Shown here piece by piece: positions 23,765 through 41,279 of a stretch of 41,495 bases of DNA. The notes below the pieces were generated by a model. That model saw only the letters and a program-made list of their open reading frames with translations. It searched no databases and had not been told where the DNA came from. Source of the DNA: Candidatus Methanoperedens sp. (GTDB lineage: Archaea; Halobacteriota; Methanosarcinia; Methanosarcinales; Methanoperedenaceae). The stretch is taken from positions 1-41,495 of the forward strand of contig JAQUNZ010000014.1 in NCBI GenBank assembly GCA_028717345.1, given 5' to 3'. Within the stretch, counting starts at the first letter, position 1. Each line of letters starts with the position of its first letter. The translations under genes were made by a program, and so were the position numbers.

Positions 23765-24400
23765 ATGAATAATAGAAAAATGATAATTCCCGCAATAATT
23801 GCACGAACGCAAAAAGAATTAGATGAACATTTAAGCAAAGTTGAAGGTTATTCAGAATTAGTTCAACTTGACATCATGGATGGAACATTTGTCCCAAATA
23901 ATTCCCTTTATTTCGATTTTGATGTATCAGGTAGTAATATCAGTTTCGAAGCCCATTTAATGATCACTGACCCAATGGGATGGATTGAAAAAAACTGGTG
24001 GAAGGTTGATACTATCATCGTTCATTTTGAATCGTGTGAAAAACCATTGGATATTATAAGGTTTGTAAAAGAAAAAGGTAAAAAAATTGGGTTTGCAATT
24101 ATTCCTGGGACAGCGATTCATAATGTAAAACCTTATCTGGATGATATTGACCAATTGTTGATAATGACCGTTAATCCTGGATTCTACGGAAGTAAATTCC
24201 TCCCTGAAACCCTTAGTAAAATAAGTAAGGCAAGAAAGATAAAACCAAACCTGGATATAGAGGTTGACGGGGGCGTTACGCCTGATACAATCAAATTAAT
24301 AAATGATTCAGGAGCAAATATGTTCGTCTCAGGATCATATATATTAAAATCCGATGGCGTTAAAGAAGCTATCGATTCATTAAAAAAGCTGATACAGTAA
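23765..24400 (+). CDS. Ribulose-phosphate 3-epimerase-like protein
   Basis: 211-residue TIM-barrel protein of the RPE family, interconverting pentulose phosphates or a related sugar phosphate. The motifs QLDIMDGTFVPN, EAHLMITDPM, MTVNPGFYGSKF and EVDGGV are present. The first motif has Gln34 where the typical enzyme has His (HxDxMDG), normally a metal ligand. His64 and the two Asp ligands are kept. I recall the Gln variant in a divergent subfamily, so activity may still be epimerisation, possibly on another substrate. Immediately followed by transketolase and transaldolase genes. Confidence 0.78.
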   Translation: MNNRKMIIPAIIARTQKELDEHLSKVEGYSELVQLDIMDGTFVPNNSLYFDFDVSGSNISFEAHLMITDPMGWIEKNWWKVDTIIVHFESCEKPLDIIRFVKEKGKKIGFAIIPGTAIHNVKPYLDDIDQLLIMTVNPGFYGSKFLPETLSKISKARKIKPNLDIEVDGGVTPDTIKLINDSGANMFVSGSYILKSDGVKEAIDSLKKLIQ

Positions 24401-24425
24401 GATATATGAAGAATTGAAAGGTATT

Positions 24426-25235
24426 ATGCTGAAAATGATCAGGAAATTAAAAGATAAAGCAACTGTTATCCGCAGACATATAATAAAAATGGTACACAGT
24501 GCAGGTTCAGGTCATCCTGGTGGTTCTTTATCATGCACAGATATTCTTGTGGTGTTATATTTCCATGTAATGAAACATGATCCGCAAAAAAAAGACCGTG
24601 AAAGGGACAGGTTCATTTTATCAAAAGGACATGCAGCACCTGCATTATATGCTACATTGGCTGAGTGTGGTTATTTCCCGATAAGCAAATTGGAAACATT
24701 AAGGAAGAACGGAGGATACCTTCAGGGTCACCCGGATTCAAGCATACCAGGCGTTGAAGTTTCATCAGGTTCATTAGGGCAGGGTCTCTCAGTGGCAAAT
24801 GGAATTGCTCTTGCAGCCAGGCTGGATGAGAATCCATCAAGGGTATTTGTGTTATTGGGTGATGGAGAATGCGATGAAGGGCAAGTATGGGAAGCTGCTA
24901 TGCTTTCTGCCCATTATAAACTGGATAATTTAGTTGCAATAGTTGACCGGAATGGGCTTCAAATAGACGGACAAACAGAACAAATAATGTGTCTTGAACC
25001 TTTTTCAAAGAAATGGGAATCGTTTGGCTGGCATGTCATTGAAATAGACGGAAATAATATTGAAGAGATCATAAAAGCTTTTAATGAAACTGAAAATATT
25101 ATTGGAAAGCCGACCGTGATAATTGCACATACATTTAAAGGAAAAGGGGTCTCATTTATGGAAGGGAAATGCGCTTTCCATGGCAAAGCCCCGACAGATG
25201 AAGAAATGATAAGAGCTCTGGAGGAATTGAAGTAA
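24426..25235 (+). CDS. Transketolase, N-terminal subunit
   Basis: ThDP-binding half of a split transketolase, typical of archaea. Of the 269 residues, the ThDP/Mg signature is GDGECDEGQVWEAAM..LDNLVAIVDRNGLQ. Substrate-phosphate and ThDP residues sit in GHPGGSLSCTDILV, SKGHAAPALYA and SSGSLGQGLSVANGIALA. I chose ATG 24426, preceded by AAAGGT; an in-frame TTG at 24414 adds four residues. The stop overlaps the C-subunit start (TAATG). Confidence 0.92.
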   Translation: MLKMIRKLKDKATVIRRHIIKMVHSAGSGHPGGSLSCTDILVVLYFHVMKHDPQKKDRERDRFILSKGHAAPALYATLAECGYFPISKLETLRKNGGYLQGHPDSSIPGVEVSSGSLGQGLSVANGIALAARLDENPSRVFVLLGDGECDEGQVWEAAMLSAHYKLDNLVAIVDRNGLQIDGQTEQIMCLEPFSKKWESFGWHVIEIDGNNIEEIIKAFNETENIIGKPTVIIAHTFKGKGVSFMEGKCAFHGKAPTDEEMIRALEELK

Positions 25236-26173
25236 TGGATAATCTCCTGTCTACAAGAGAGGCATGCGGGCTAACCCTTCAAAATATGGGTCACAAAGAA
25301 AAGGATATCGTTGTTCTGGATGCTGACCTTTCGGGTTCAACACAGACGAAAAAATTCGCCGACAAATTCCCCAACAGGTTCTTTAATGTAGGCTGTGCAG
25401 AACAAAATTTGATAGGAACTGCGGCAGGATTAGCCATCGGCGGAAAGACCGCCTTTGCAGGCACATTCGCCATGTTCTTGATGCGCGCCTGGGAACAGAT
25501 AAGAAACACGGTTGCACATGATAATCTGAATGTAAAATTATTGGGAAGTCATTCAGGTTTAACAAATTCAAAAGATGGAGGTTCCCACCAATGTCTTGAG
25601 GATATTGCGCTCATGTGCTGTTTGCCGAATATGAGTGTATTGAATCCTGTAGATGCTATTGAGGCTGAGAAGATTGTAATCAATGAAGTATACCGTAAAG
25701 GTCCTTCATATATCAGGATGAATAGAATCAGTACTCCGGCGATCAATACTGATGATTATAATTTTGAATTCGGTAAAGCAGTTGAAATCCGGGAAGGTGA
25801 AGACTTAACAATAATTGCAACCGGTACTATGGTGTCAGAGGCAGTCAAAGCGTCAGAAAAGCTGAAAAAAGAGGACATAAAAGCACGAGTATTGAATGTG
25901 CATACGATCAAACCGATAGACAAGAATAGCATCCTCAAATCAGCAAAAGAGACAGGACACATAATAACGGTTGAGGAGCACAGTATTTACGGAGGTTTAG
26001 GCAGTGCTGTTGCCGGGATAATTGTTGAGAATTATCCTGTACCGATGAAGATAATGGGAGTAAATGACCGGTTTGGGGAGTCAGGTGATTATAATTACCT
26101 TATAAATAAATTCGGGTTGAATGATGTTGAAATAGTAAAAAATGCAAAAGAACTTTATGGTGATAGAAAATGA
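25235..26173 (+). CDS. Transketolase, C-terminal subunit
   Basis: Pyrimidine-binding half and C-terminal domain of the split transketolase. The 312 residues contain [15 protein letters not shown], the catalytic Glu region [21 protein letters not shown] and [25 protein letters not shown]. The C-terminal domain follows ([14 protein letters not shown]..). It converts C5/C7 and C4/C6 sugar phosphates by C2 transfer. Stop overlaps the transaldolase ATG by four bases. Confidence 0.93.
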
Positions 26174-26814
26174 AGATTTTTATTGATACGGCAAATATTG
26201 ACGAAATTAAGACCGCTAATGAATGGGGAGTTATTGATGGTGTAACTACAAATCCAACGCTTGTCGCAAAAGAGGGAAAGGATTTTAAGTCCATCGTAAA
26301 TCAGATACTGAGCATAGTTGATGGTCCCATAAGCGTCGAAGTAATTAGTACTGATGCGAAGGGCATGGTCAAAGAAGCAGTTGAAATGTCGAAATGGTCG
26401 AAAAATATCGTGATAAAGATACCAATGATCCCTGAGGGACTAAAGGCTGTCAAGATATTAAATGAAAAAGGTGTTAAGACCAATGTTACGCTGGTCTTTT
26501 CTGTGAACCAGGCAATACTGGCTGCCAAGGCGGGAGCGACTTATGTAAGCCCATTTATTGGAAGGCTGGACGATATCGGTCATGATGGCATGCAAATAAT
26601 AAGAGATATGGTGCAGATATATAATTTATATGATTTTAAAACTGAAATTATCGTTGCAAGCGTCAGGCATCCGTTACACGTCATAGAATCAGCTAAAATA
26701 GGGGCGCATGTTGCTACAATTCCCTTTAGTGTCATTGAAAAGATGTTTAAGCATCCATTGACTGATATCGGGCTTGAGAAGTTCTTGAAGGATTGGAAAA
26801 AGGTTGTTGAATGA
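26170..26814 (+). CDS. Transaldolase (short, FSA-like)
   Basis: 214-residue TIM-barrel. It forms a Schiff base through Lys83 in [18 protein letters not shown]. The family start [20 protein letters not shown] and [14 protein letters not shown] are clear, as are [13 protein letters not shown] and [14 protein letters not shown]. It transfers dihydroxyacetone units between C7 and C3 sugar phosphates, or acts as fructose-6-phosphate aldolase. ATGA overlaps on both sides tie it to the transketolase and UXS genes in one coupled unit. Confidence 0.92.
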
Positions 26815-27737: not shown

Positions 27738-27801
27738 AATACAATTATTTAATATGCAAAAAAGCATTAAATATGATAATATTCAAAATGGAGACAATAA
27801 A

Positions 27802-28596
27802 ATGCCAAACATGGATAATAAACCAAAAGTCATCATTCTCTGCGGCGGCATGGGTACAAGACTGCGAGAAGAAACCGAATATAAACCCAAACCTTTAGTT
27901 GAGATTGGAGGCAAACCAATCTTATGGCACATTATGAAAATATATTCAAGCTATGGTTTTAAGGATTTTGTGCTATGTCTTGGTTATAAAGGAAACATGA
28001 TTAAAGAATATTTTCTTAATTATGAAATGTTGAACAGTGATTTTACCATAGAACTTGCGAGCAAGAAAATTAAAACACATAATTCAATTTCAGAGCATGA
28101 TTGGCGTGTCACTCTGGCAAATACAGGTGAATCTTCAATGACTGGAGCACGAATAAAAAAAGTAGAAAAGTTTATCGATAGTGATTTGTTTATGTTAACT
28201 TATGGTGATGGTGTTGCAAATATAGATATCACAAAACTTCTCGACTTTCATAAATCCCATGGCAAGATTGGAACGGTTACAGGTGTAAATCCCACCTCTA
28301 AATTTGGGGAGTTATCAATAAAAGGGGATAATGTTCTTCAATTTAATGAAAAACCTCAAATGAACGAAGGTTTTATCAATGGTGGTTTTTTTGTATTTAA
28401 CAAGGAATTCTTTAAATATTTAAATGACGATGATGGTTGCGTGCTTGAAAAGGAGCCCCTTGAGAATCTGGCACGAGATGGAGAATTAATGATGTACAGG
28501 CATACAGGTTTCTGGAATTGTATGGATACCTATCGGGACTTTTTGCATATGAATAACCTATGGACTTCATCCAACCCGCCATGGAAAATATGGTAG
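27802..28596 (+). CDS. rfbF: Glucose-1-phosphate cytidylyltransferase
   Basis: Makes CDP-glucose, the first committed step of CDP-linked 3,6-dideoxyhexose synthesis. Of the 264 residues, the core is [35 protein letters not shown], with [25 protein letters not shown] and [12 protein letters not shown] 27802 has GGAG about eight bases upstream; an in-frame ATG at 27754 has no ribosome-binding site. It ends five bases before the likely rfbG start. Confidence 0.93.
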
Positions 28597-28601
28597 TAGA
28601 A

Positions 28602-29591
28602 ATGACTGATTTCTGGAAAAGCAAGAATGTGTTTATAACCGGCGCAACAGGTCTGCTCGGGTCATGGTTGACAAAACTCATGATCGATGAAGGGGCTAAT
28701 GTAATTTGCCTGAACCGGGATATAACCCCAAAATCCATTGTATGGAGCCGTTCTTCAGAATTTGATTATATCAAAGATAAATTGACCGTTGTGAATGGAT
28801 GCCTGGAGGATTATCAATTACTTGAAAGGATACTGAACGAATATGAGATCGAAGTTGTTTTCCATCTTGGAGCGCAGACGATCGTTGGAGTGGCTAATAG
28901 GAATCCGCTATCCACGTTTGAATCAAATATCAGGGGAACTTACAATCTTCTTGAAGCATGCAGGAGGAACAGGGAAAACATCAAAGCTGTTGTTGTGGCG
29001 TCAAGTGACAAAGCATACGGGATACAGGAAAAGCTGCCTTATGATGAAAGTACTCCATTGCGAGGCACTCACCCCTATGATGTCTCAAAAAGCTGTGCTG
29101 ATCTGTTGTCATATACATATTTCCATACATATGGATTGCCTGTTTGTGTAACCCGCTGCGGGAATTTATTTGGTCCGGGGGATTTGAATTTTAACAGGAT
29201 AGTTCCTGGAACCATAAGGTCAATATTGCTTGGTGAAAAGCCATTAATAAGAAGCGACGGGAGTTATATTAGAGATTATTTCTATGTCAAGGATGGAGCT
29301 ATTGCCTATAAGCATCTGGCTGAAAAGATATACGAACGGGATATAGCAGGTGAAAGCTTTAATTTCAGCAATGAGATACAGCTAACGGTTCTTGGACTTG
29401 TTGAGAAGATTCTTGATATCATGGGAAGCTCTCTTGAACCAGAGATTCTCGGAAAAGCAACCAACGAGATAAAACATCAGTACCTGTCAGCAAAGAAGGC
29501 TCATGAAGTGCTGAAATGGTATCCGTGCTATACATTAGAAAAAAGTCTTAAGGAGACTGTGGAATGGTACGAAAATTTTTTAAATAACTAA
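28602..29591 (+). CDS. rfbG: CDP-glucose 4,6-dehydratase
   Basis: Converts CDP-glucose to CDP-4-keto-6-deoxyglucose with bound NAD. The protein has about 329 residues. [20 protein letters not shown] is the family's characteristic N-terminus. [39 protein letters not shown] and [12 protein letters not shown] (Tyr-x3-Lys) follow, then the loop [21 protein letters not shown] 28602 matches the family length. Two in-frame upstream starts (28560, 28581) overlap the end of rfbF. Confidence 0.93.
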
Positions 29592-29617: not shown

Positions 29618-30562
29618 ATGGTTATGAAAAAGTTAATTAGCGTGGTAATACCGGCGTATAATGAAGAGGAAGTTGTTGATGAGCTTGCCAATAGATTAAA
29701 AAAGGTTATGCAGGAGAATAATAATTACGATTTTGAGGTAATTATTGTAGAAAACGGCTCTTGGGATTCGACGTTTGAAAAACTTATAAACCTCTATAAA
29801 GAAGATAACAGGTTCAAAATTGTGCAATTATCACGGAATTTTGGATGTGACGGCGGTATTACAGCAGGGTTGAAATATGCAAAAGGTGATGCTGCAGTAA
29901 TTATGAACGCGGACCTTCAGGATCCACCAGAAATGATATCAAAGTATATCAGGAAATGGGAAGAAGGATACGAGATTGTTTACGGTATCATAGAACAAAG
30001 AGAAGGTGTTCCATTTTTAAGACGATTTTTCTCAACTACTTTTTATAAAATAATAAATAGATTAACCAATAATGCAATTCCTGAAGGCGCAAGTGATTTC
30101 CGCCTGGTGGATAAGAAAGTATATTTTACAGTAAATAAAATGGAAGAGAGAAATAAGTTTTTGCGCGGTATTATCGCATGGACCGGATTTAAACAGACGG
30201 GGATTCCATTCGATAGACCTCCCAGGTTTGCAGGTGAGTCAAAAGCTGATTTTCTAACAGTGCTTAAAGTAGCAATGAATGGAATATTTTCTTTTTCATA
30301 TTTTCCGTTAAGAGTAGTAACTGCGCTGGGACTTGTTGTATCGGTTGGTTCTTTTTTGATGAGTATAGTGGAAATAGGGCTTTACTTGAAATACGGGCGA
30401 GTTGTGCCAGGATTTACAACTACTATACTTTTAATACTATTTTTATTTGGAATTCTGTTTTTTATTCTGGGAATTATTGGAGAGTATCTTGCACGGATAT
30501 ATGACGAAGTAAAACAGCGTCCGAATTATATTGTGAGGAATAAGATTGGGTTTACTGATTAA
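29618..30562 (+). CDS. GT2 glycosyltransferase, GtrB/DPM-like, two C-terminal helices
   Basis: Transfers a sugar to polyprenyl phosphate at the cytosolic membrane face. Of the 314 residues, the GT-A core has VVIPAYNEEEVVDEL, ENGSWDSTFEKL and the metal motif NADLQDPPEMI. Also visible are GASDFRLVDKKVY and RFAGESKADF. Two transmembrane helices lie at about 232-255 and 264-290. The family is usually paired with a GtrA flippase and a GT-C; both occur at the end of this run (38494-41279). An alternative ATG is two codons downstream. Confidence 0.9.
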   Translation: MVMKKLISVVIPAYNEEEVVDELANRLKKVMQENNNYDFEVIIVENGSWDSTFEKLINLYKEDNRFKIVQLSRNFGCDGGITAGLKYAKGDAAVIMNADLQDPPEMISKYIRKWEEGYEIVYGIIEQREGVPFLRRFFSTTFYKIINRLTNNAIPEGASDFRLVDKKVYFTVNKMEERNKFLRGIIAWTGFKQTGIPFDRPPRFAGESKADFLTVLKVAMNGIFSFSYFPLRVVTALGLVVSVGSFLMSIVEIGLYLKYGRVVPGFTTTILLILFLFGILFFILGIIGEYLARIYDEVKQRPNYIVRNKIGFTD

Positions 30563-30584: not shown

Positions 30585-31334
30585 ATGAAAGTAGTCTTTT
30601 TAGGCACTAATGGATGGTATGATACAGAGACTGGAAATACTGTATGCACGCTTATCGAGACAAAGGATTATTTTATTATTCTGGATGCAGGTAATGGAAT
30701 TTATAAACTTGATCGTTATATTACGAACGCAAGCAATAAACCAATTAAACTTTTTATCAGTCATTTTCATATCGATCACATCAGTGGAATGCACATATTG
30801 AATAAATTTAGATTTAATCAGGGGATGAAGATATATGGGCAGGCAGGAACAAAAGATATTCTAAATAGGATCGTCAATTCTCCATATACTATTCCGTTCT
30901 CAAGATTGCCATTTAAAGTTGATTTTGACGACCTTTCTGAAGGGACTCATCATCTCCCATTTTCGGTAGAATGCAGATTCCTGCATCATTCATCACCATG
31001 CATGGGGTATCGATTCGAACTTGAAGGGAAAATAATTACTTATTGTCCGGATACAGGGGTATGTGAAAATGCAATAAAACTTTCAAGAAATGCAGACTTG
31101 CTTATTACAGAATGCTCATTTAAGAGCGGTCAGAGTAATGCTCAATGGCCGCATTTAAATCCTGAGGATGCGGCACAGATTGCGAATGAGGCTAAAGTCA
31201 GGAAGCTTGTTCTGATTCATTTCGACACAAATATATATCGAACCTTGAAAGAAAGGAAGGAAGCTGAAACCATAGCAAAGAACATATTCCAAAACACATT
31301 TGCAGCAATTGATAATATGCAAATTCAAGTATAG
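30585..31334 (+). CDS. Metallo-beta-lactamase-fold hydrolase, RNase Z-like
   Basis: 249-residue dizinc hydrolase with HFHIDHISGMHIL (His60, His62, Asp64, His65). Later metal ligands occur at CPDTG, plus a C-terminal HFDT. The N-terminus VVFLGTNGWYDTETGNTVC and the HHSSPCMGYRFELEGK segment resemble the ElaC/AtsA-like branch. Substrate unknown. Its place between the sugar-nucleotide genes and the ThDP enzyme suggests a hydrolytic step in the pathway, but this is inference. It has its own ATG with no clear ribosome-binding site. Confidence 0.85.
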   Translation: MKVVFLGTNGWYDTETGNTVCTLIETKDYFIILDAGNGIYKLDRYITNASNKPIKLFISHFHIDHISGMHILNKFRFNQGMKIYGQAGTKDILNRIVNSPYTIPFSRLPFKVDFDDLSEGTHHLPFSVECRFLHHSSPCMGYRFELEGKIITYCPDTGVCENAIKLSRNADLLITECSFKSGQSNAQWPHLNPEDAAQIANEAKVRKLVLIHFDTNIYRTLKERKEAETIAKNIFQNTFAAIDNMQIQV

Positions 31335-31420: not shown

Positions 31421-33211
31421 ATGAAAATGCGAGTAGCAGATTTTCTTACGGCAAAATTGTATGAAGCTGGCGGTGAACATGTTTTCCTGATAACAGGTGG
31501 AATGATCATGCATCTTACTGATGCCTTGCTGCAACATGGGAAACAAAAATTCATATGCTGTCATCATGAGCAAGCTGCTGTAATGGCAGCGGATAGCTAT
31601 GGAAGGTTTACTGGAAAACTTGGGGTTGCCTATGTTACCGCAGGTCCTGGCGCATTGAACACATTGACAGGAGTTGTGGGCGCTTATGTAGATTCCTCAC
31701 CCTGCATTATCGTTGCTGGTCAATCAAAAGTAGCACAGGCAAAAGTAACTGGTCCACGGCAATTTGCCCTTCAAGGATTTAACACACTGCCAATATTTAA
31801 AAATGTAACAAAATACGCAGTTATGTTGGATGATGTTTCCAAAGTTAAGTATGAAGTTGAAAAATGTATTTTTCTAGCTAAATCTCATCGTGTAGGCCCG
31901 GTATGGATCGAATGTCCTGTAGATATCCAGGGTGCTATTTTTGACCCTGATGATTATGAAGGTTTTAATCCACCATCTGAAGAACCTGATGATTCTAAAC
32001 TACTTCAAGAACAAGTAGAATTAGTTAAAGATGCTATATTAAAAAGTAGAAGGCCATGTATACTTGTCGGTGCAGGTGTTCGTCTTTCAGGTGCAATTGA
32101 ATCATTACATAAATTACTGGATAGAACTGGCATTCCGGTTATGACTTCGAGACTTGGTATGGATTTGATCGACCATGAGCATCCTTTGTTTGTAGGTCGT
32201 CCTGGAACTTATGGAGATAGGGCAGCTAATTTCACAATCCAGAATTCAGATCTTTTCTTGAATATTGGCTGCAGGTTAGGTATTGGGTTGGTCAGTTACG
32301 AATATCAAACTTTCGCCTGCCGAGCTAAAAAAATTATTGTTGATATAGACAAGTCTGAATTAACCAAGCCGTCTATCGTTCCTGATATTGCTATTTGTGC
32401 AGACGCTGATGTTTTCATCAATATGCTCATTGAACGTCTAGGAAATTACCATTTTGATAATAAAAAGTGGGTGGAACAAACACAACGCTGGAAAAAAAAA
32501 TATCCAGTAGATCTTCCTGAATATGAAAAAGAAAAAGAAGGAATAAACTCATATCATTTCATAAGGTTATTTTCTGAAAGAATGCCCAAAGATAGTGTTT
32601 TTGTCCTGGATACTGGTTCCTGTTTCCATGTATATGCACAGGCTTTTAAGGTAAAGTTCGGTCAAAGGCATATAATCACTGGAGGTCTTTCTACTATGGG
32701 TTATATGCCTGGTGTAATCGGGGTTGCTGTTGCTCATCACGGTAAAGAAGTCTATTGTATTACAGGGGATGGCTCAATACAAATGAACCTTCAAGAACTG
32801 CAGACAATTGTTCACAATAAACTTCCTGCAAAAATCATTGTTTTTAATAACAATGGTTATTTACTTATTCGACATACTCAAAAAAATTTTATGGATGGCC
32901 GTTTCATAGGAGAATGCGCAGATACGGGTGTAAGTTTTCCAGACATGAAAAAAATAGCGAAAGCATATGGGATTCCTTATATGAGAATTTCAAAATTAAG
33001 CGAGTTAGATGCAAAACTAACCTCGTTAATGAAACATGAAGGAAATGTTATATGTGAGATCATGACGCCTGCCAATCAATTACTTATTCCGCGTGTGGCA
33101 TCAAAAAAGCTGGATGATGGAACAATGGTATCCATGCCATATGACGATATGTTCCCATTTCTTCCACGAGACGAATATCAAGAGAATTGTGTGTATGATA
33201 AAATTTTGTAG
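31421..33211 (+). CDS. ThDP-dependent enzyme, IlvB/YerE-like
   Basis: 596 residues with the three-domain layout of the acetolactate synthase superfamily. The pyrimidine-binding domain has the catalytic Glu50 in HHEQAAVMAADSYGR. The central domain is RPCILVGAGVRLSG. The ThDP-binding domain has GDGSIQMNLQELQTI..VFNNNGY (Gly449-Asp450). It decarboxylates pyruvate or a 2-oxo acid and transfers the C2 unit. Lying between rfbG and rfbH, it fits YerE, which adds a C2 unit to C4 of CDP-3,6-dideoxy-4-ketoglucose. A plain acetolactate synthase is possible, but no small subunit is nearby. AAGGAG lies eight bases before the ATG. Confidence 0.85.
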   Translation: MKMRVADFLTAKLYEAGGEHVFLITGGMIMHLTDALLQHGKQKFICCHHEQAAVMAADSYGRFTGKLGVAYVTAGPGALNTLTGVVGAYVDSSPCIIVAGQSKVAQAKVTGPRQFALQGFNTLPIFKNVTKYAVMLDDVSKVKYEVEKCIFLAKSHRVGPVWIECPVDIQGAIFDPDDYEGFNPPSEEPDDSKLLQEQVELVKDAILKSRRPCILVGAGVRLSGAIESLHKLLDRTGIPVMTSRLGMDLIDHEHPLFVGRPGTYGDRAANFTIQNSDLFLNIGCRLGIGLVSYEYQTFACRAKKIIVDIDKSELTKPSIVPDIAICADADVFINMLIERLGNYHFDNKKWVEQTQRWKKKYPVDLPEYEKEKEGINSYHFIRLFSERMPKDSVFVLDTGSCFHVYAQAFKVKFGQRHIITGGLSTMGYMPGVIGVAVAHHGKEVYCITGDGSIQMNLQELQTIVHNKLPAKIIVFNNNGYLLIRHTQKNFMDGRFIGECADTGVSFPDMKKIAKAYGIPYMRISKLSELDAKLTSLMKHEGNVICEIMTPANQLLIPRVASKKLDDGTMVSMPYDDMFPFLPRDEYQENCVYDKIL

Positions 33212-33229
33212 TTCTAAAAGGTTACAAGA

Positions 33230-34120
33230 GTGAGCACTATTCCAAAAAAAATCAAAGTCGCAATACTTGGCAGCGGCAATATAGGGACAGACCTCCTTGT
33301 GAAGACATTGCGTTCCCCATTACTGGATTGCACCCTTTTCATTGGACGCAACTTAACATCACGGGGAATAGCCAAAGCTGTCAGCCTGGGGGTGAAAGTT
33401 TCCGACTTGAGTATTGATGCTATCGTAAGAAAACCAGACTGCTGCGATCTTGTTTTTGATGCAACATCAGCGCTCAGCCATGTAAAACATGTGCAAATTC
33501 TGGAAAAGCTTGGCAAGATCGTAATTGACCTGACACCATCTAATATCGGAAAAATGTGCATCCCAGCAGTTAATCTCAAGGAATGCCTGAATCATAGAAA
33601 TGTAAGCATGGTCACCTGCGGCGGGCAGGCATCTATACCTCTGGCTTATGTCATAGGACAGACGTATAATAATGTTGATTACATTGAAGTTGTTTCGTCC
33701 ATATCTTCCAGAAGCGCGGGACCGGCTACCCGTGTAAATCTTGATGAGTATATAGAAACTACGGAAAAAGGAATTAAGGATTTTTCCGGATGCAAAAGAG
33801 CTAAGACTATATTGAATCTGAATCCTGCCATTCCATATGTAGACATGCAAACTACGGTTTTTGTAAAAGTTGAAAGACCTGATGTTGAAAAGCTCAAACC
33901 TGCCATAGATAAAATGGTGAACAAAGTTCAACAATACGTCCCCGGATATCAGCTCATAGTGCCACCAACTATTGAAAACGATAGGATCGTGGTTATGGTC
34001 AAAGTTCGAGGACGTGGCGATTATTTGCCTCCGTATGCTGGTAATCTGGATATTATTAACTGCGCGGCTATAGCTATGGCTGAAGAGTACGCGAAATATT
34101 TATTGAAGAAGGGTGAATAG
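33230..34120 (+). CDS. mhpF: Acetaldehyde dehydrogenase (acylating), MhpF/DmpF type
   Basis: Oxidises acetaldehyde with CoA and NAD to acetyl-CoA. The 296 residues carry the NAD-binding VAILGSGNIGTDLLVK, the catalytic Cys130 in VTCGGQASIPLAYVI and the family block SARS-type VVSSISSRSAGPATRVNLDEYIETT in shortened form. NPAIPYVDMQTTVF is another block. Start GTG at 33230, 18 bases after the ThDP gene. Normally works as a complex with MhpE, the next gene, five bases on. The placement in a sugar locus is unusual. Confidence 0.92.
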   Translation: MSTIPKKIKVAILGSGNIGTDLLVKTLRSPLLDCTLFIGRNLTSRGIAKAVSLGVKVSDLSIDAIVRKPDCCDLVFDATSALSHVKHVQILEKLGKIVIDLTPSNIGKMCIPAVNLKECLNHRNVSMVTCGGQASIPLAYVIGQTYNNVDYIEVVSSISSRSAGPATRVNLDEYIETTEKGIKDFSGCKRAKTILNLNPAIPYVDMQTTVFVKVERPDVEKLKPAIDKMVNKVQQYVPGYQLIVPPTIENDRIVVMVKVRGRGDYLPPYAGNLDIINCAAIAMAEEYAKYLLKKGE

Positions 34121-34125
34121 GTATT

Positions 34126-35139
34126 ATGCCAAAAATATTGATCAGTGACTCTACACTCCGGGATGGCTCTCATGCAGTGGGTCATCAGTTAAATTCGCAT
34201 CAGGTAGCAGTTTATGCGGCAGCAGCAGAAGCGGCAGGCATTCCGATAGTCGAGGTCGGGCATGGAAATGGTCTTGGCGCTTCATCGCTGCAATTGGGAG
34301 AAAGCCTGATTTCCGATAATGAAATGCTAATAAGCGCAAGAAAGCATCTGACCAACTCAAAGCTGGGAATTCTTATAATCCCGGGCTTTGCCACGATAAA
34401 TAAGGACCTGAGTAGGGCAATTGAAGCAGGGGTCGATGTCGTGCGCGTGGCATCACACTGTACTGAGGCAGATATAACGGAAAGACACATAACTTATGCC
34501 CGCCAGAAAGGAAAAGAAGTCTATGGCGTCCTTATGATGAGTCATATGGCACCCAAAGAAATGCTGGTTGACGAAGCTCTCAAAATGGAGCTCTATGGCG
34601 CCGAGGGTGTTATTCTTATGGATTCTGCCGGGGCATATCTGCCCAGTGATGTCACTGAAAAAGTATCTGCTCTGGTTAATAAATTAAGAATTCCCATTGG
34701 TTTCCATGCCCACAACAATTTGGGTATGGCAGTCGCGAATTCCATCGCGGCAGTGGAAGCGGGGGCAACGATCCTGGATGGCACTGTGCGGGGATTTGGT
34801 GCGGGAGCAGGGAATGCGCAGCTTGAAGTGCTGGTAGCAGTTCTTGAAAAAATGGGATATTCGACAGGTATAGACTTATATAAGATCCTTGACGCTGCTG
34901 ATATTGCAGAAAAAGAAATGATAAAAGTCATTCCGAGTATTAAATCAGAGAGTATCGTGAGTGGTCTTTCCGGTGTTTTTTCCGGATTCCTTAAACCTGT
35001 GAACCGGATCGCTCAAAAATACGGTGTTGATCCAAGGGACATATTCTTTGAACTGGGCCGCAGACAGGTAGTTGCAGGTCAGGAGGATTTGATCATCGAG
35101 GTTGCACAGGAATTGTCCCATAGGCGTGATATAAAATGA
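34126..35139 (+). CDS. mhpE: 4-hydroxy-2-oxovalerate aldolase, MhpE/DmpG type
   Basis: Class II pyruvate aldolase that cleaves or forms 4-hydroxy-2-oxo acids, channelling acetaldehyde to MhpF. The 337 residues include DSTLRDGSHAVGHQ (Arg12, Asp13, His16) and the metal ligands in FHAHNNLGMAVAN (His194, His196). The C-terminal communication domain (VDPRDIFFELGRRQVVAGQEDLI) is complete, so pairing with MhpF is likely. It overlaps the next gene by four bases. Confidence 0.93.
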   Translation: MPKILISDSTLRDGSHAVGHQLNSHQVAVYAAAAEAAGIPIVEVGHGNGLGASSLQLGESLISDNEMLISARKHLTNSKLGILIIPGFATINKDLSRAIEAGVDVVRVASHCTEADITERHITYARQKGKEVYGVLMMSHMAPKEMLVDEALKMELYGAEGVILMDSAGAYLPSDVTEKVSALVNKLRIPIGFHAHNNLGMAVANSIAAVEAGATILDGTVRGFGAGAGNAQLEVLVAVLEKMGYSTGIDLYKILDAADIAEKEMIKVIPSIKSESIVSGLSGVFSGFLKPVNRIAQKYGVDPRDIFFELGRRQVVAGQEDLIIEVAQELSHRRDIK

Positions 35140-36200
35140 ACCATATATTAAAAAGTGTCCGGAAGGACTGTGACGAAGTAACTGCAAGCTCCATTCCCCT
35201 GCTTTATAAGTTAAAAGGTGAATGCATCTTTATCACAGGTGGTACCGGGTTCATGGGTACGTGGCTTGTCGAGATGGTTACATTTTTGAATGATGTATAT
35301 AGCTTTAATACCAGGCTAATTTTGTTATCCGACAGGGCTAATAACTTCAGCGCGAAGGCGTCTCATCTTGCAATGCGAAAAGATGTTGAACTGGTAGAGC
35401 GGGATGTCAGGAACTTGATCGAAATACCTGAGGTGGTTACATATATCATCCATGCAGCAGCCAATCCTGATAATCGCATGCATGCATCTGATCCGCTTAA
35501 GACCATGGATGTTATTTCAAGAGGTACGGATGCTGTGCTTAATGCGGCTGTCAGGCTGCCTGTCCTTAAAAAATTACTGAACATAAGTTCAGGATTGATT
35601 TACGGTCCTCAACCCCCGGATTTTGATTCAATAGCTGAAGATTATCGAGGCGGTTCTGATTGCGGTTCGGTCACTTCAGCTTATTCTGAAGCAAAACGAT
35701 TTGCAGAGACACTATGTGCTGCATATCGCAGTCAATATAAAATTGCCATAGTCACTGCTCGTCCGTTCGCTTTTATCGGTCCTTACCAACTCCTGGATAA
35801 ACCATGGGCGATAAATAATTTTATTCGCGACAGCTTGATGGGCGGACCTGTTCGTATTTTAGGTGATGGCCAGACTGTTAGATGCTACATGTATCCAAGC
35901 GATATGGCTTTCTGGCTTCTGCGCATACTGATAGACGGAACTCCGGGATTGGCTTATAATGTTGGGAGTCCGCATGGAGTGACATTGCAGCAGCTGGCTG
36001 AAAAAATAACCGGAAACTTTCCCATTAAGCCCAGGATTATTTCCCGCGTTGCAGGTGAAAGTGATTTATACAGATCAAAACTGGTTCCTGATGTAACCCT
36101 TGCCCAAAAAAGCCTGGGTCTAAATCTGACAGTAGATATTGATGAAGCTATCAGGCGTACCCTGCTCTGGCATAGAGAAAGCGGAATAAAAGGTATATGA
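35136..36200 (+). CDS. NAD-dependent epimerase/dehydratase (extended SDR)
   Basis: 354 residues. After a ~30-residue N-terminal extension comes the cofactor loop FITGGTGFMGTWLVEM. Catalytic elements are SSGLIYGPQP and SAYSEAKRFAETL (Tyr-x3-Lys). ARPFAFIGPY and the RCYMYPSDMAFWLL region are typical of sugar-nucleotide dehydratases/epimerases. Exact reaction unknown; a step on the branched or deoxy sugar is likely. ATGA overlaps on both ends. Confidence 0.85.
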   Translation: MNHILKSVRKDCDEVTASSIPLLYKLKGECIFITGGTGFMGTWLVEMVTFLNDVYSFNTRLILLSDRANNFSAKASHLAMRKDVELVERDVRNLIEIPEVVTYIIHAAANPDNRMHASDPLKTMDVISRGTDAVLNAAVRLPVLKKLLNISSGLIYGPQPPDFDSIAEDYRGGSDCGSVTSAYSEAKRFAETLCAAYRSQYKIAIVTARPFAFIGPYQLLDKPWAINNFIRDSLMGGPVRILGDGQTVRCYMYPSDMAFWLLRILIDGTPGLAYNVGSPHGVTLQQLAEKITGNFPIKPRIISRVAGESDLYRSKLVPDVTLAQKSLGLNLTVDIDEAIRRTLLWHRESGIKGI

Positions 36201-37135
36201 TGCGCAAGAAAATCGCTATCCTTGGCGCCACAGGGCATATTGCAAAGAGCTTGATATATGGGTTTTGTTTGACTGATAATTATGAGCTTTTACTGTTCGC
36301 CAGATCAAATGACAGGCTAAATGAATTCCTGCAGAGGATACACTGCAATAATAGGTTTTCATACAGAGCTTTTAGCGAATTTGAGCAAGAAAAATACGAC
36401 GTTGTTATAAATTGCATTGGGATTGGTGATCCGGGAAAGTTGAAAAATGCAGGGATTTCAATTTTCAGGCTGACAGAAACATATGACAACATGATATTGG
36501 ATTACATTGAAGACCAGAATGATGCTCTTTATATAAACTTTAGCAGCGGCGCAGCGTACGGAACATATTTTAGCATCCCTGCCGATGAATCATCCTGCGC
36601 TAAAATTTATATAAATAATCTCGCTTCGACTGATTATTATGGGATTGCCAAGCTAAATGCAGAAGCTAAGCATCGGTCATTGAATAATTTGAATATCATA
36701 GATCTAAGGATATTTGGATATTTTAGCAGATTTATAGATATTGGATCCCAGTATCTTTTGAGTGAGGCAATCTCTTGTATTCAAGACGGTAAAGTTCTTG
36801 AAACAGGACCGGGAAATATAATTCGAGATTATGTTCATCCGCAGGATTTCATGTCTCTTATTGAAAAATGTATCAATAAACGATCTATTAACGATGTATT
36901 CGATGTTTATAGTAAAAAACCTGTGACGAAATTTGAGATACTGGATTATTTTACCAGACAATACGGATTAAGATACATTGTTAAAGAAAATGCAAATATT
37001 TCAAATGCTACCGGTACTAAAGACAACTATTACTCTAATAATAAAAAAGCCGAAAAACTTTGTTATTTCCCCCGGTTTACCTCATTGGATAGTATTATTG
37101 ATGAAACAAAGTTAATTCTTTCGAATACAATTTAA
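36197..37135 (+). CDS. SDR-family sugar-nucleotide reductase/epimerase
   Basis: 312 residues with a divergent cofactor loop (IAILGATGHIAKSL) and YYGIAKLNAEAK (Tyr-x3-Lys). The C-terminal substrate region is RDYVHPQDFMSLIEKCI. It could be the reductase that finishes the pathway, as YerF does for yersiniose, but the reaction cannot be read from sequence. AAAGGTAT lies before tandem ATG codons (36197 and 36200). Confidence 0.78.
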   Translation: MMRKKIAILGATGHIAKSLIYGFCLTDNYELLLFARSNDRLNEFLQRIHCNNRFSYRAFSEFEQEKYDVVINCIGIGDPGKLKNAGISIFRLTETYDNMILDYIEDQNDALYINFSSGAAYGTYFSIPADESSCAKIYINNLASTDYYGIAKLNAEAKHRSLNNLNIIDLRIFGYFSRFIDIGSQYLLSEAISCIQDGKVLETGPGNIIRDYVHPQDFMSLIEKCINKRSINDVFDVYSKKPVTKFEILDYFTRQYGLRYIVKENANISNATGTKDNYYSNNKKAEKLCYFPRFTSLDSIIDETKLILSNTI

Positions 37136-37148
37136 AAGATGTCAAGAT

Positions 37149-38480
37149 ATGAAAACCAAAGAAGAACTCAAAAAGGAAATATTCAGTAAAGTCAAAGAGT
37201 ACTTTCTATTAGCTCATCAGCAGGAGCAATTCATACCAGGCAGATCAAAAGTAAATTACGCAGGTAGAGTTTACGATGAGAAAGAATTGATCAATCTCGT
37301 GGATTCTGCACTCGAATTCTGGCTGACATCAGGCAGATATGCAAAAGAATTTGAAAAAAACTTCTCTGATTTCCTGGGAGTAAAACATTGTATCCTTACG
37401 AACTCAGGCTCATCTGCAAACCTGCTTGCCATTACAGCATTAACTTCTCCCAAACTTGGAGATAAACGATTAAAACCCGGCGATGAAGTAATTACGACTG
37501 CTGCCTGCTTCCCAACCACAGTAGCGCCTATAATACAGAATAATCTGGTTCCGGTTTTTGTGGATGTAAGCATACCAACATATAATATCGAATGCTTGCA
37601 ACTTGAAAATGCGCTCAGCGAAAAAACCAGAGCAGTTTTTCTTGCACATACGCTGGGAAATCCTTTTGATATAGATACAGTAAAAAATTTTTGCAGTAAA
37701 AATGGACTCTGGCTTATTGAAGATAACTGTGATTCCCTTGGCTCAGAATATAAAGGCAAATACACAGGCACATTTGGAGATATAGCGACATATAGCTTTT
37801 ATCCTCCACACCATATGACCATGGGAGAAGGCGGAGCTTTAACGACAGATAACACTCTTTTGAAAGACATAATCTGTTCGTTCAGGGACTGGGGAAGAGA
37901 TTGCTGGTGTGATTCCGGACAGGATAATGCCTGTCGTAAACGGTTTTCATGGCAGCTTGGTCAACTGCCGAAAGGATATGATCATAAATATACATATTCT
38001 CATTTTGGGTATAATCTGAAAGTTACGGACATGCAAGCGGCTGTTGGATGCGCGCAGCTTGAAAAGTTGCCTGGTTTTATTGAAAAAAGGAGAAATAATT
38101 TCAAAGAATTGTTCAATGGGTTAAAGAAATATGAAGATCATTTGATATTGCCTGAAGCTACTTATGGGAGTGACCCTAGCTGGTTCGGATTCTTAATTAC
38201 TGTACGGGAAGAAAGCAGTTTTTCCAAGAATCAGATTGTTGAATATTTGGAATCAAAAGGTATTCAGACAAGGATGCTTTTTGCAGGAAATATTATAAAA
38301 CATCCCTGTTTTGATGAGATAAGAGGGGGTTATGGAAAATACAGGGTTATTGGAGGTATGGAAAATACGGATAACATTATGAAAAATAGTTTCTGGTTAG
38401 GAGTTTATCCTGGAATGGATTCTAAAAAATTGAATTACATGATCAATATGTTTGAAAATTTTTTCAATGATGTTCATTGA
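37149..38480 (+). CDS. rfbH: CDP-4-keto-6-deoxyglucose 3-dehydrase (E1, RfbH)
   Basis: PMP- and [2Fe-2S]-dependent removal of the C3 hydroxyl, giving 3,6-dideoxyhexoses. 443 residues of the DegT fold. The usual PLP lysine is replaced by His221 in YPPHHMTMGEGG, the hallmark of E1. The cluster cysteines Cys194, Cys252, Cys254 and Cys262 reproduce the E1 pattern C-X57-C-X-C-X7-C exactly. The partner reductase E3 is not in the window. Starts nine bases downstream of a TCAAGATATG stretch, 13 bases after the previous stop. Confidence 0.95.
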   Translation: MKTKEELKKEIFSKVKEYFLLAHQQEQFIPGRSKVNYAGRVYDEKELINLVDSALEFWLTSGRYAKEFEKNFSDFLGVKHCILTNSGSSANLLAITALTSPKLGDKRLKPGDEVITTAACFPTTVAPIIQNNLVPVFVDVSIPTYNIECLQLENALSEKTRAVFLAHTLGNPFDIDTVKNFCSKNGLWLIEDNCDSLGSEYKGKYTGTFGDIATYSFYPPHHMTMGEGGALTTDNTLLKDIICSFRDWGRDCWCDSGQDNACRKRFSWQLGQLPKGYDHKYTYSHFGYNLKVTDMQAAVGCAQLEKLPGFIEKRRNNFKELFNGLKKYEDHLILPEATYGSDPSWFGFLITVREESSFSKNQIVEYLESKGIQTRMLFAGNIIKHPCFDEIRGGYGKYRVIGGMENTDNIMKNSFWLGVYPGMDSKKLNYMINMFENFFNDVH

Positions 38481-38493
38481 ATTGAGAGCTATA

Positions 38494-38865
38494 ATGTTTG
38501 AAAAACAAATCTCCAGATTTATTTTTGTTGGGATTTTGAATACAATTGTGGGATATGGTGCTTATTTTATATTGCTATATTTAAATATATATTATATGTT
38601 GGCACTTCTGATTTCACATATAATTGGTGTTACCAATAGTTTTATTTGGAACAAAAAATGGACATTCCAATCAGAGGGAAATGCACGAAGAGAGGGAATA
38701 AAATTTTTTTCCGTTTATGGTATTATATTCATGATGAATCTATTTATTTTAACTTTTTTTGTAGAAGGATTGAAACTCACTCCGCAAATCGGCCAGGTAG
38801 TTGCATTAGGCATTTGTACAATGATCAGTTATTTTGGGCATAAATACTGGAGCTTTAGATTATGA
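38494..38865 (+). CDS. GtrA family membrane protein
   Basis: Four-helix membrane protein, 123 residues. Family members flip polyprenyl-phosphate-linked sugars or are needed for glycan transfer. QISRFIFVGILNTIVGYGAYF is the family start; FIWNKKWTFQSEG and the ending ISYFGHKYWSF are conserved blocks. I chose ATG 38494, after the rfbH stop; in-frame ATG codons at 38470 and 38452 overlap rfbH. ATGA overlap with the next gene. Confidence 0.9.
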   Translation: MFEKQISRFIFVGILNTIVGYGAYFILLYLNIYYMLALLISHIIGVTNSFIWNKKWTFQSEGNARREGIKFFSVYGIIFMMNLFILTFFVEGLKLTPQIGQVVALGICTMISYFGHKYWSFRL

Positions 38866-41279
38866 ATATTGTTGAAAATTTTCACACGCTATTGACGAGA
38901 TTCTATGAAAGAGCTATTCAATACAAAGAAATCTTAATTTTATTGCTTTTTACTTTAATATTTTTCTGGAAAATCATAATAAATAATGATCAGATGATAA
39001 GTCCGGCTTTTGATACCACAGGAATTCTTTCATTCTGGAGATGGCTATATTCAAGCACTATCCTTCAATATGGTGAACTTCCTCTCTGGAATCCATACAC
39101 CTTTAGCGGAACCACTTTTCTCAGCAATCCTCAAACATCCATGTTTTACCCGATAAATGCATTATTCATTCTTTTCCCCTCGAATCTGACATTTGGGTAT
39201 ATTTTTATGCTGGATGTTTTTTTGATGGGCGTATTTACTTATTTATTTGCAAGGACTATTGAATTAAGCAAATTCTCTTCTTTAATTTCAGCCATAGTTT
39301 TCATGTTCAGTGGAACCGTGACATCACGAATTTATGCCGGGCATCTGAATATCCTTGATGCGTTTGTCTGGTTTCCTTTAATTCTCTTATTTTATGAAAT
39401 GGCAATAAAGGAAAGGAAATTGGTGTATGGGATTCTGGCTGGATTTGCCCTTACACTCATGTTTTTCACAGGTCATACCCAGTTTATAGTTTATGGCCTG
39501 ATGGCTTCGGTCATGTATTTTATTTTCAGGTCATATGGAATAATCAAAAAAGAAAGAAATTCCAGGTGTATATTAAACTTAGCAGTAATCCTGTTTATAT
39601 CAATGGTTGTGTTATTTTCTTTGGTTGCAATCCAACTTTTGCCCACGCTAGAATTTTCAAATTATGCTGATCGAGCTGGAGGTATTAGCTTTAAAGAAGC
39701 CTCAACATTTTCTTTGACACCCCAGTATTTTATTGCGTTTATTATTCCTGAATTTTTTGGAAGCCCTATAAACAATACTTATTGGCACCATGGAAATCTA
39801 TGGGAAATATGTGGGTATGCTGGGGTATTGCCATTAATATTAGCGTTAATTGGGAGTATGTATAAAAAAAAGAATATTTATGTATCTATTTTTTTAATCC
39901 TGGTATTATTTACGTTGCTGTTCTCATTAGGGAAATACACCCCAATTTTTACTATATTTTATAACTATGTGCCGGGATTTAATCTATTCAGGGCACCAGG
40001 AAGATTTTTGTTTGTATATGTATTTTCCATTTCAATTTTAGCAGGTTTTGGAAGCAGTTTTTTAACTGAAGATATTTCCAGGAAGCAATTGGATGAATTT
40101 AGTAAATTTACAAAAAGTTTAATCTTGATTTCTATATTGTCAATCATATTACTACTTATTTCCTATTTTGCAAAATCTTTAATAATATCATTTGGACAAT
40201 CACTTATAGCTGAGAATTATTTAATATACTCTCAGCTGTATCAATATCCATTGTCTTATTGGTATGATTTTACTACAGTAGTTTATTCAACAATTTTACA
40301 AAGTGTAATTATCTTCATAATATTTTTAGTAACCAGCACATACATATTATATTTGAAGGCAAAAGGGAAAATCAACTTAAATCATTTCCAGTATATAGTT
40401 ATATTATTAATTTTGTTAGATCTTTTTGCTTTTGGTTGGAATTTTATTGATACAAAAAATCCAGATGATATTTTTAAACCTCCTGAATATATTAAAATAA
40501 TTAAAAGTGATGATACCCGCTACAGGGTATTGGGTCCATTGGCACAATCTATAGCAAGTAAATCAGATATTGAGCTGGTAAATGGATATGACTCATCTTA
40601 TTTGAGATTATATCAGGATTTTTTATGGTTATCTGACAATAAATCGATTTCTATTAATCCAAAATATGATTTGGTTATTGATATTCCCGATATCTCCGAT
40701 ATCCATAATCTAAATATTTTTCGTTTATTGAATGTGAAGTATATAATTTCAGAAAAAGAACCAAATACAATTGGATTCCATAAAATATACAGTCAAAATA
40801 ACCTTTCTATCTATGAAATTAATGAAACAATGCCGCGTGCATTTATCGTAAGGAATGCAAGGATAATACAGAATAAGAGTGAAATATTTAATGTGCTGCA
40901 AGATTATAATTTTAATATTACTGATGAAATCATTTTAGAACAAAATCCTGGCGTTCCAATTCATAATGCAGGAAAATTTGAAAATGTGAAAATAGCCAAA
41001 TACACTCCAAATCGAATAGATATGGAGATCAATATGACAAATCCTGGCTTTTTAGTTTTAAGTGAGATCTGGTACCCGGGATGGAAAGCTTATGACAATA
41101 ATCAAAAAAGTGAAGTTTATAAAACAGATTATGCACTTAGATCTATTTTTGTTGCAGAAGGTGAGCACCATATAAGTTTCGTATATGAACCAGAATCATA
41201 TTCGATTGGGAAAACGATTTCCATAATATCTTTCATTGTATGTATTTTTGTTATTATTATTCTATTGCAAAAACATTGA
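38862..41279 (+). CDS. YfhO-like multi-pass membrane protein (GT-C type)
   Basis: 805 residues, about a dozen helices in the first 540, then a large extracytoplasmic C-terminal domain and a final helix. The first loop has SPAFDTTGILSFWRWLY and LPLWNPYTFSGTTFLSNPQT, matching the YfhO family, relatives of GT-C glycosyltransferases that use lipid-linked donors on the outer membrane face. With GtrA and GtrB it completes a Gtr-like set for side-chain addition. The last coding gene of the sugar run. Confidence 0.82.
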   Translation: MNIVENFHTLLTRFYERAIQYKEILILLLFTLIFFWKIIINNDQMISPAFDTTGILSFWRWLYSSTILQYGELPLWNPYTFSGTTFLSNPQTSMFYPINALFILFPSNLTFGYIFMLDVFLMGVFTYLFARTIELSKFSSLISAIVFMFSGTVTSRIYAGHLNILDAFVWFPLILLFYEMAIKERKLVYGILAGFALTLMFFTGHTQFIVYGLMASVMYFIFRSYGIIKKERNSRCILNLAVILFISMVVLFSLVAIQLLPTLEFSNYADRAGGISFKEASTFSLTPQYFIAFIIPEFFGSPINNTYWHHGNLWEICGYAGVLPLILALIGSMYKKKNIYVSIFLILVLFTLLFSLGKYTPIFTIFYNYVPGFNLFRAPGRFLFVYVFSISILAGFGSSFLTEDISRKQLDEFSKFTKSLILISILSIILLLISYFAKSLIISFGQSLIAENYLIYSQLYQYPLSYWYDFTTVVYSTILQSVIIFIIFLVTSTYILYLKAKGKINLNHFQYIVILLILLDLFAFGWNFIDTKNPDDIFKPPEYIKIIKSDDTRYRVLGPLAQSIASKSDIELVNGYDSSYLRLYQDFLWLSDNKSISINPKYDLVIDIPDISDIHNLNIFRLLNVKYIISEKEPNTIGFHKIYSQNNLSIYEINETMPRAFIVRNARIIQNKSEIFNVLQDYNFNITDEIILEQNPGVPIHNAGKFENVKIAKYTPNRIDMEINMTNPGFLVLSEIWYPGWKAYDNNQKSEVYKTDYALRSIFVAEGEHHISFVYEPESYSIGKTISIISFIVCIFVIIILLQKH

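Follow-up and report, generated by a model that had tools for sequence, protein, structure and literature searches.

MhpF, an acylating acetaldehyde dehydrogenase, and MhpE, a pyruvate aldolase, usually carry out the last steps in the breakdown of aromatic compounds. A different family, the YerE-like enzymes, of which more than 200 have been reported (PMC12247030), uses thiamine diphosphate (ThDP) to put carbon branches on nucleotide sugars. YerE of Yersinia pseudotuberculosis takes pyruvate, giving the two-carbon branch of yersiniose A, whereas ErwE of Pectobacterium atrosepticum, according to the account in PMC12247030 (citing Steitz et al. 2022), uses 4-hydroxy-2-oxo acids including 4-hydroxy-2-oxopentanoate, not pyruvate, and couples the donor to cytidine diphosphate (CDP)-4-keto-3,6-dideoxyglucose to yield erwiniose. 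MMAR_2332 (caryophyllose) has a donor preference like that of ErwE (PMC12247030), and JanthE of Janthinobacterium sp. HH01 accepts 4-hydroxy-2-oxovalerate (PMC12188165). Here we analysed a stretch of 41,495 nucleotides from Candidatus Methanoperedens sp. (contig JAQUNZ010000014.1; hereafter the window), in which a YerE-like ThDP gene is followed directly by mhpF and mhpE. We consider it likely that MhpF-MhpE, run in reverse, is a module making the donor for the sugar-branching ThDP enzyme and that the product is an erwiniose-type sugar; the reversed pair would yield exactly such an acid as ErwE uses, 4-hydroxy-2-oxopentanoate.

The three genes are intact and lie on the same strand, with 18 bases between the ThDP gene and mhpF and 5 between mhpF and mhpE; mhpE in turn overlaps by 4 bases the gene of SDR1, a short-chain dehydrogenase/reductase (SDR). 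RfbF, RfbG-like and RfbH genes surround them (Table 1), confirming that the trio is part of an archaeal CDP-3,6-dideoxysugar operon. MhpF scored 380 bits against TIGR03215 (cut-off 282) and MhpE 404 bits against TIGR03217 (cut-off 286) with the DmpG communication domain kept, and the genome holds one MhpF and one MhpE over the cut-off. The catalytic residues are present in both (Cys130 in MhpF; Arg12, Asp13, His16, His194 and His196 in MhpE). A previous reading of this DNA, made from sequence only, had described the gene order and its spacing, the intact residues and the position of the pair inside a sugar-nucleotide operon, and on each of these points our analysis agrees with it. In families, catalytic residues and communication domain the window pair is the same as the DmpFG, BphIJ and MhpEF channel complexes (PDB 1nvm); it differs in Phe at the site of BphI Tyr290 (the Leu at the Leu87 site is kept), in the lack of meta-cleavage genes and in the proposed reverse direction. 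No meta-cleavage genes were found within the window, and the MhpD and meta-cleavage neighbours typical of catabolic MhpEF were absent both there and from the ThDP-linked loci described below.

A gene order unique to this genome, with meta-cleavage genes elsewhere, had been named as the case that would speak against the sequence-only reading, and a search across genomes for the order and for its link to rfbF/rfbG/rfbH had been suggested. The search revealed that the order recurs. From an MhpE scan of GTDB genomes the best 80 loci were taken; among them, a complete YerE-like ThDP gene lay alongside MhpE in 28 of the 34 loci with at least 60% MhpE identity (4 of the other 6 were cut by contig ends), as against 1 of the 16 loci with less than 50% identity, an association far above chance. 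The recurring set comprises RfbF/G/H, the YerE-like ThDP enzyme, MhpF-MhpE and an SDR, always without meta-cleavage genes, and is spread over a dozen phyla or more (Omnitrophota, Elusimicrobiota, Bacillota, Pseudomonadota, Thermodesulfobacteriota, Bdellovibrionota, Gemmatimonadota, Armatimonadota, Planctomycetota, Verrucomicrobiota, Spirochaetota, Bacteroidota, Fibrobacterota and others). Within the archaeal phylum MhpF was detected in 7 of 393 genomes, 5 of which have MhpD nearby and look catabolic; the sugar cassette was present only in the window's genome and in a genome of another family (G129), where the genes around the second cassette (L149) correspond to those of the window with 58-72% identity, and a GtrA-like gene is present as well (45%). 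A similar grouping is on record in Rickettsiella isopodorum, whose island A1D18_03425-03465 brings together a ThDP enzyme, an aldolase, an acetaldehyde dehydrogenase, a pyridoxal phosphate enzyme and a glucose-1-phosphate cytidylyltransferase and is listed as horizontally acquired, without an assigned pathway (PMC5181103). No YerE-like ThDP genes were found on plasmids.

The ThDP protein of the window has JanthE (8rph) as its best PDB match and closest solved structure, with 431 bits versus 235 for plant acetohydroxyacid synthase (AHAS), and it falls below the AHAS cut-off (TIGR00118). It carries HHEQAA at 48, GDG at 449 (CDG in JanthE) and NN at 476, and the domains PF02775, PF02776 and PF00205. 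The ThDP motif and catalytic Glu, the preference for JanthE over AHAS, and the linkage to CDP-4-keto-3,6-dideoxyglucose genes, which is seen in the relatives too (RfbF and RfbH over their cut-offs, RfbG-like in the window), place it, as a predicted carboligase acting on a ketone, among the YerE/ErwE-like branching enzymes. A tree was built from YerE-like enzymes of genome samples blind to MhpE together with those from the MhpE scan. On this tree the MhpFE label required 4 changes versus a shuffled mean of 30.7, and JanthE grouped among the MhpFE-linked enzymes. A basal clade of 19 enzymes from archaea, Paenibacillales relatives and Geobacter relatives had no aldolase detectable by our probes; most of its members have an SDR ketoreductase (SDR2-like or SDRc10) next to RfbF/G/H, a layout that would be expected for yersiniose. 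We infer that this clade is the pyruvate-using YerE type, the tree having held no characterised YerE, that of Y. pseudotuberculosis included. The two groups differ at the site of Val121, an active-site hotspot of JanthE (PMC12188165): Phe occupies it in 19/19 aldolase-free enzymes and in AHAS, but in 0/49 MhpFE-linked enzymes, which have Leu, Val, Ile, Thr, Ser or Arg instead. The columns of JanthE Y268, P293, Y297 and K567 vary too, less cleanly. With Leu at this site, the window enzyme lies outside the aldolase-free Phe clade and is not assigned to the pyruvate-type YerE. The window shares the RfbF/G/H pathway and a ThDP branching enzyme with the yersiniose A system, and differs from the presumed YerE-type clade, with its Phe and no aldolase, in carrying Leu and MhpF-MhpE.

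The aldolases are likewise divided. A fully supported branch of the MhpE tree separated the ThDP-linked proteins from 32 catabolic MhpE, and mhpD, present in 29 of 30 catabolic loci, occurred in no ThDP-linked locus. The five catalytic residues of MhpE are invariant in 49/49 ThDP-linked relatives and the catalytic Cys of MhpF in 47/47, while two stereocontrol sites known from BphI have changed. Wild-type BphI gives the 4S product only, the Y290F variant loses stereocontrol, and L87N/Y290F and L87W/Y290F accept only 4R (PMC3962088). At the Tyr290 site Phe is found in 47 of the 49 linked MhpE and Tyr in all 32 catabolic ones; at the Leu87 site His, Phe or Tyr is found in 48/49 and Leu in 32/32. 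By analogy with the BphI variants, the linked MhpE may lead to the 4R product, L87H, L87F and L87Y not being among the variants described in PMC3962088. The window MhpE has the first change (Phe285) and retains Leu at the second site (Leu83); at the Leu89 site it has Ile, and most relatives have a residue of Ile or Leu size. Four actinomycete MhpE (L069, L073, L075, L076) fall on the biosynthetic side with Phe at the 290 site and yet have MhpD nearby, possibly an intermediate state. MhpE of the biosynthetic clade also occur in other contexts in actinomycetes and Nostoc (L063, L066, L068), two of them with MhpF; an AMP-binding enzyme is encoded at L063, and a class I tRNA synthetase gene adjoins MhpE at L066. 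A Pelagibacteraceae locus (L062:7114-14161) has MhpF-MhpE with an ATP-grasp enzyme, NeuB and methyltransferases, and no YerE-like gene.

Analysis of the neighbourhoods in the MhpE-blind sample revealed that MhpF-MhpE is one of several modules found beside YerE-like enzymes. Outside the basal clade, a 2-oxo-acid C-C synthase is encoded no more than 7 kb away from 25 of 31 enzymes (NeuB-like in 11, MhpFE in 7, HpcH/HpaI in 4 and HMGL-like in 3), as against 0/19 in the basal clade (Fisher p ~1e-8, relatedness uncorrected); the synthase probes were derived from these same loci, so that unfamiliar synthases in the basal clade could escape them. Among the congeners of the window's organism, one (G006) has RfbF and RfbG with 87-89% identity, while congener ThDP genes are only 35-50% identical and none has MhpF-MhpE nearby; in another congener (L277, G012) a NeuB-like synthase gene stands between two YerE-like ThDP genes ~5.5 kb apart. 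From these comparisons it seems that, within the genus, modules have been exchanged while a resident framework stayed in place. At a further locus (L065:7289-12084) MhpF-MhpE comes directly after a ThDP enzyme of the unrelated E1-alpha/E1-beta type; an SDR gene follows the pair, and a NeuB-like match lies a few kb upstream. Supply of a donor by the pair would allow such a pairing with a non-YerE enzyme. In five islands (L243, L244, L245, L152, L224) a 3-dehydroquinate synthase (DHQS)-like gene accompanies a YerE-like ThDP enzyme and an HMGL- or HpcH-type enzyme, which suggests a cyclised branch or sugar. Another genome of the genus (G003) encodes a 707-aa protein (L002:391-2511) whose MhpE-like aldolase domain passes the TIGR03217 cut-off and whose C-terminal part of ~360 aa has no Pfam match; a DegT-like aminotransferase gene adjoins it.

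In the pathway that we propose, RfbF would convert glucose-1-phosphate to CDP-glucose, the RfbG-like protein would perform the 4,6-dehydration and RfbH the 3-deoxygenation, leading to CDP-4-keto-3,6-dideoxyglucose. MhpF would reduce acetyl-CoA with NADH to acetaldehyde and hand it to MhpE, which would join it with pyruvate to 4-hydroxy-2-oxopentanoate. The ThDP enzyme would decarboxylate this acid rather than pyruvate and put the resulting 3-hydroxybutanoyl unit on C4 of the keto sugar, the release of CO2 pulling the uphill reduction. SDR1 or SDR2 would then reduce the branch ketone, and the product would be a ten-carbon sugar of the erwiniose type, linked to CDP and bearing a 4-C-(1,3-dihydroxybutyl) branch; probably the GT2 glycosyltransferase loads it on a lipid, the GtrA-like protein flips it and the YfhO-like protein attaches it to a surface glycan. 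Erwiniose, by its name a D-gulo-octose, would have C7 as R, as we derive it, and this would fit a 4R donor. The first and last groups of steps are predicted from family assignment and the middle group from the comparisons of the ThDP tree, the aldolases and the modules. Those comparisons showed which genes are present, what is conserved, how the clades separate and which residues have changed; the final sugar is a predicted one. So described, the system resembles that of P. atrosepticum, compared here by its description in the account cited above, in having a YerE-like ThDP enzyme, CDP-4-keto-3,6-dideoxyglucose as acceptor and, as proposed for the window, a 4-hydroxy-2-oxo acid as donor; it differs in being archaeal. 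As to direction, E. coli MhpF acts reductively in yeast (PMC5574463), and the same direction is presumed for MhpF-MhpE in this organism.

Several points weigh against this proposal. The reaction direction of the window enzymes cannot be told from their sequence, and their activities are predicted from it. The window MhpE is the only one among 49 with Leu at the Leu87 site, so its stereochemistry is uncertain; the codon of Leu83 (CTT, 34372-34374) is one base away from the His codon of most relatives, His also being the residue of the second archaeal cassette, and the Leu could be a genuine change or an assembly error. The aldolase-free YerE enzymes are essentially one clade, and the residue contrasts, not being independent, amount to one contrast rather than 19. 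No module was found at two loci that lie within an MhpFE clade (L258 and L259), and 15 of the 49 linked loci have an extra HpcH/HpaI aldolase, where the donor may differ from 4-hydroxy-2-oxopentanoate. Lastly, the surroundings of the cluster yielded no E3 reductase partner for RfbH.

Two other roles for the pair had been put forward by the sequence-only reading. One was the recovery of acetaldehyde; in the form weighed here, the ThDP enzyme would use pyruvate for a two-carbon, yersiniose-type branch and leak acetaldehyde, which MhpF would turn into acetyl-CoA, MhpE being a passenger of the complex. Oxidation is the known catabolic direction of MhpF and pyruvate is the substrate of YerE itself (PMC12247030), but such recovery predicts the pair beside pyruvate-using YerE enzymes, and it was present in 0/19 loci of the clade presumed to be of that kind, sampled blind to MhpE. 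Moreover, MhpE would be left without a role though kept in every complete locus, and there would be no explanation for the changes at the Tyr290 and Leu87 sites or for the exchange of the pair with modules of the NeuB, HpcH and HMGL kinds. The other role, the building of a new branch by the aldolase, survived in part, since the carbons joined by MhpE would end up in the branch. In its direct form, pyruvate would be joined by MhpE to the 4-keto sugar nucleotide, for a pyruvyl branch like that of shewanellose, and the ThDP enzyme would have its place in some other reaction. Such a route has no need of the ThDP enzyme or of MhpF, although both are kept in nearly every linked locus. Pyruvyl-type C4 branches do exist in nature, for example in shewanellose, and the active site of the aldolase is unlike the catabolic ones; the Ile- or Leu-sized residue at the Leu89 site in the window and most relatives, however, speaks against a bulky acceptor, as does the intact MhpF communication domain against the direct route as a whole. 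Because of distribution and gene content we reject both, acetaldehyde recovery being very improbable and direct aldol branching scarcely less so.

A variant of donor supply, in which the pair handles a different acyl-CoA or aldehyde, or the donor is lengthened by another aldolase towards a caryophyllose-like longer branch, would account for the additional HpcH/HpaI aldolase in 15/49 linked loci, and YerE-like enzymes are reported to take C2 to C8 donors (PMC12247030). Given that the window and its nearest relatives are without HpcH or NeuB, and that Ile at the Leu89 site leads one to expect a small aldehyde, we regard this variant as unlikely for the window. An accidental neighbourhood, with a horizontally acquired catabolic pair beside sugar genes, is suggested by the family names only; it is refuted by the recurrence of the order in many phyla, and the separate clade of linked MhpE and the absence of meta-cleavage genes speak against it as well, making it of negligible probability. 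Supply of 4-hydroxy-2-oxopentanoate by MhpF-MhpE, as proposed above, is the explanation that we favour.

Table 1. Genes of the predicted CDP-3,6-dideoxysugar operon, with positions in the window.
Feature	Position	Strand	Support and remarks
RfbF-like glucose-1-phosphate cytidylyltransferase	27754..28596	+	TIGR02623, 359 bits (cut-off 300)
RfbG-like CDP-glucose 4,6-dehydratase	28560..29591	+	Best NCBIfam match TIGR02622, 196 bits, below cut-off 278; assigned mainly from context
Glycosyltransferase family 2 (GT2) polyprenyl-phosphate glycosyltransferase (PgfS/ArnC/GtrB type)	29618..30562	+	PF00535; NF047588, 268 bits, below cut-off 500
Metallo-beta-lactamase (MBL)-fold hydrolase, accessory, no role assigned	30585..31334	+	PF12706
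YerE/ErwE-like ThDP carboligase, putative sugar-branching enzyme, 596 aa	31421..33211	+	JanthE match, motifs, tree
MhpF-type acylating acetaldehyde dehydrogenase, 296 aa, GTG start	33230..34120	+	TIGR03215 over cut-off; Cys130
MhpE-type pyruvate aldolase, 337 aa	34126..35139	+	TIGR03217 over cut-off; PF07836
SDR1, extended SDR, candidate branch ketoreductase or epimerase	35136..36200	+	PF01370; recurs beside MhpE, mainly with MhpFE
SDR2, candidate branch ketoreductase	36197..37135	+	PF01370; directly after the ThDP gene in some aldolase-free (yersiniose-type) loci (L238, L240, L250, L254)
RfbH, CDP-4-keto-6-deoxyglucose 3-dehydrase (E1)	37149..38480	+	NF011936, 737 bits (cut-off 423); SFYPPHH and Cys cluster
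GtrA-type flippase-like membrane protein	38452..38865	+	PF04138
YfhO-like membrane protein, candidate outer-face glycosyltransferase	38862..41279	+	PF09586

An L10 protein with an RL10P insertion, an archaeal mark, is encoded at 1118-2152 of the window; mcrA was not detected in the genome. The stretch immediately upstream of the sugar operon (23765-26814) holds genes for ribulose-phosphate 3-epimerase, a split transketolase and transaldolase, a pentose-phosphate set within the polysaccharide island. The MBL-fold hydrolase was found in 6 genomes of the genus, and 5 of these also have a YerE-like ThDP gene. The window resembles GtrA-GtrB-type surface glycan modification systems in that one operon combines a GT2 enzyme with a GtrA-like and a large membrane protein; it differs from them in gene order and in the YfhO-like third member.

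For the ThDP step, the chemistry has been published before. Among the accessible papers none was found that assigns MhpF-MhpE to donor supply, though the primary ErwE study (Steitz 2022) may do so; as far as checked, the archaeal occurrence, the two-site signature of the aldolase and the pattern of module swaps are undescribed. A wider view, which we judge as apt to fail as to hold, is that YerE-like enzymes work as parts of a modular system, the length and stereochemistry of the branch being set by an exchangeable neighbouring 2-oxo-acid synthase (none for pyruvate; MhpF-MhpE; MhpF-MhpE with HpcH; NeuB-like; or an HMGL-like and DHQS-like pair), that the MhpE of the cassette is a distinct biosynthetic aldolase evolved towards 4R at the two sites engineered in BphI, and that archaea use the system too. 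If true, a textbook catabolic channel complex would gain a biosynthetic job, and the kind of synthase beside the ThDP gene would allow branch length to be predicted from the genome in the many YerE-like clusters that make an uncharacterised sugar. Natural aldolases may then make the 4R product so far obtained by mutation of BphI, and archaea would join the makers of branched deoxysugars.

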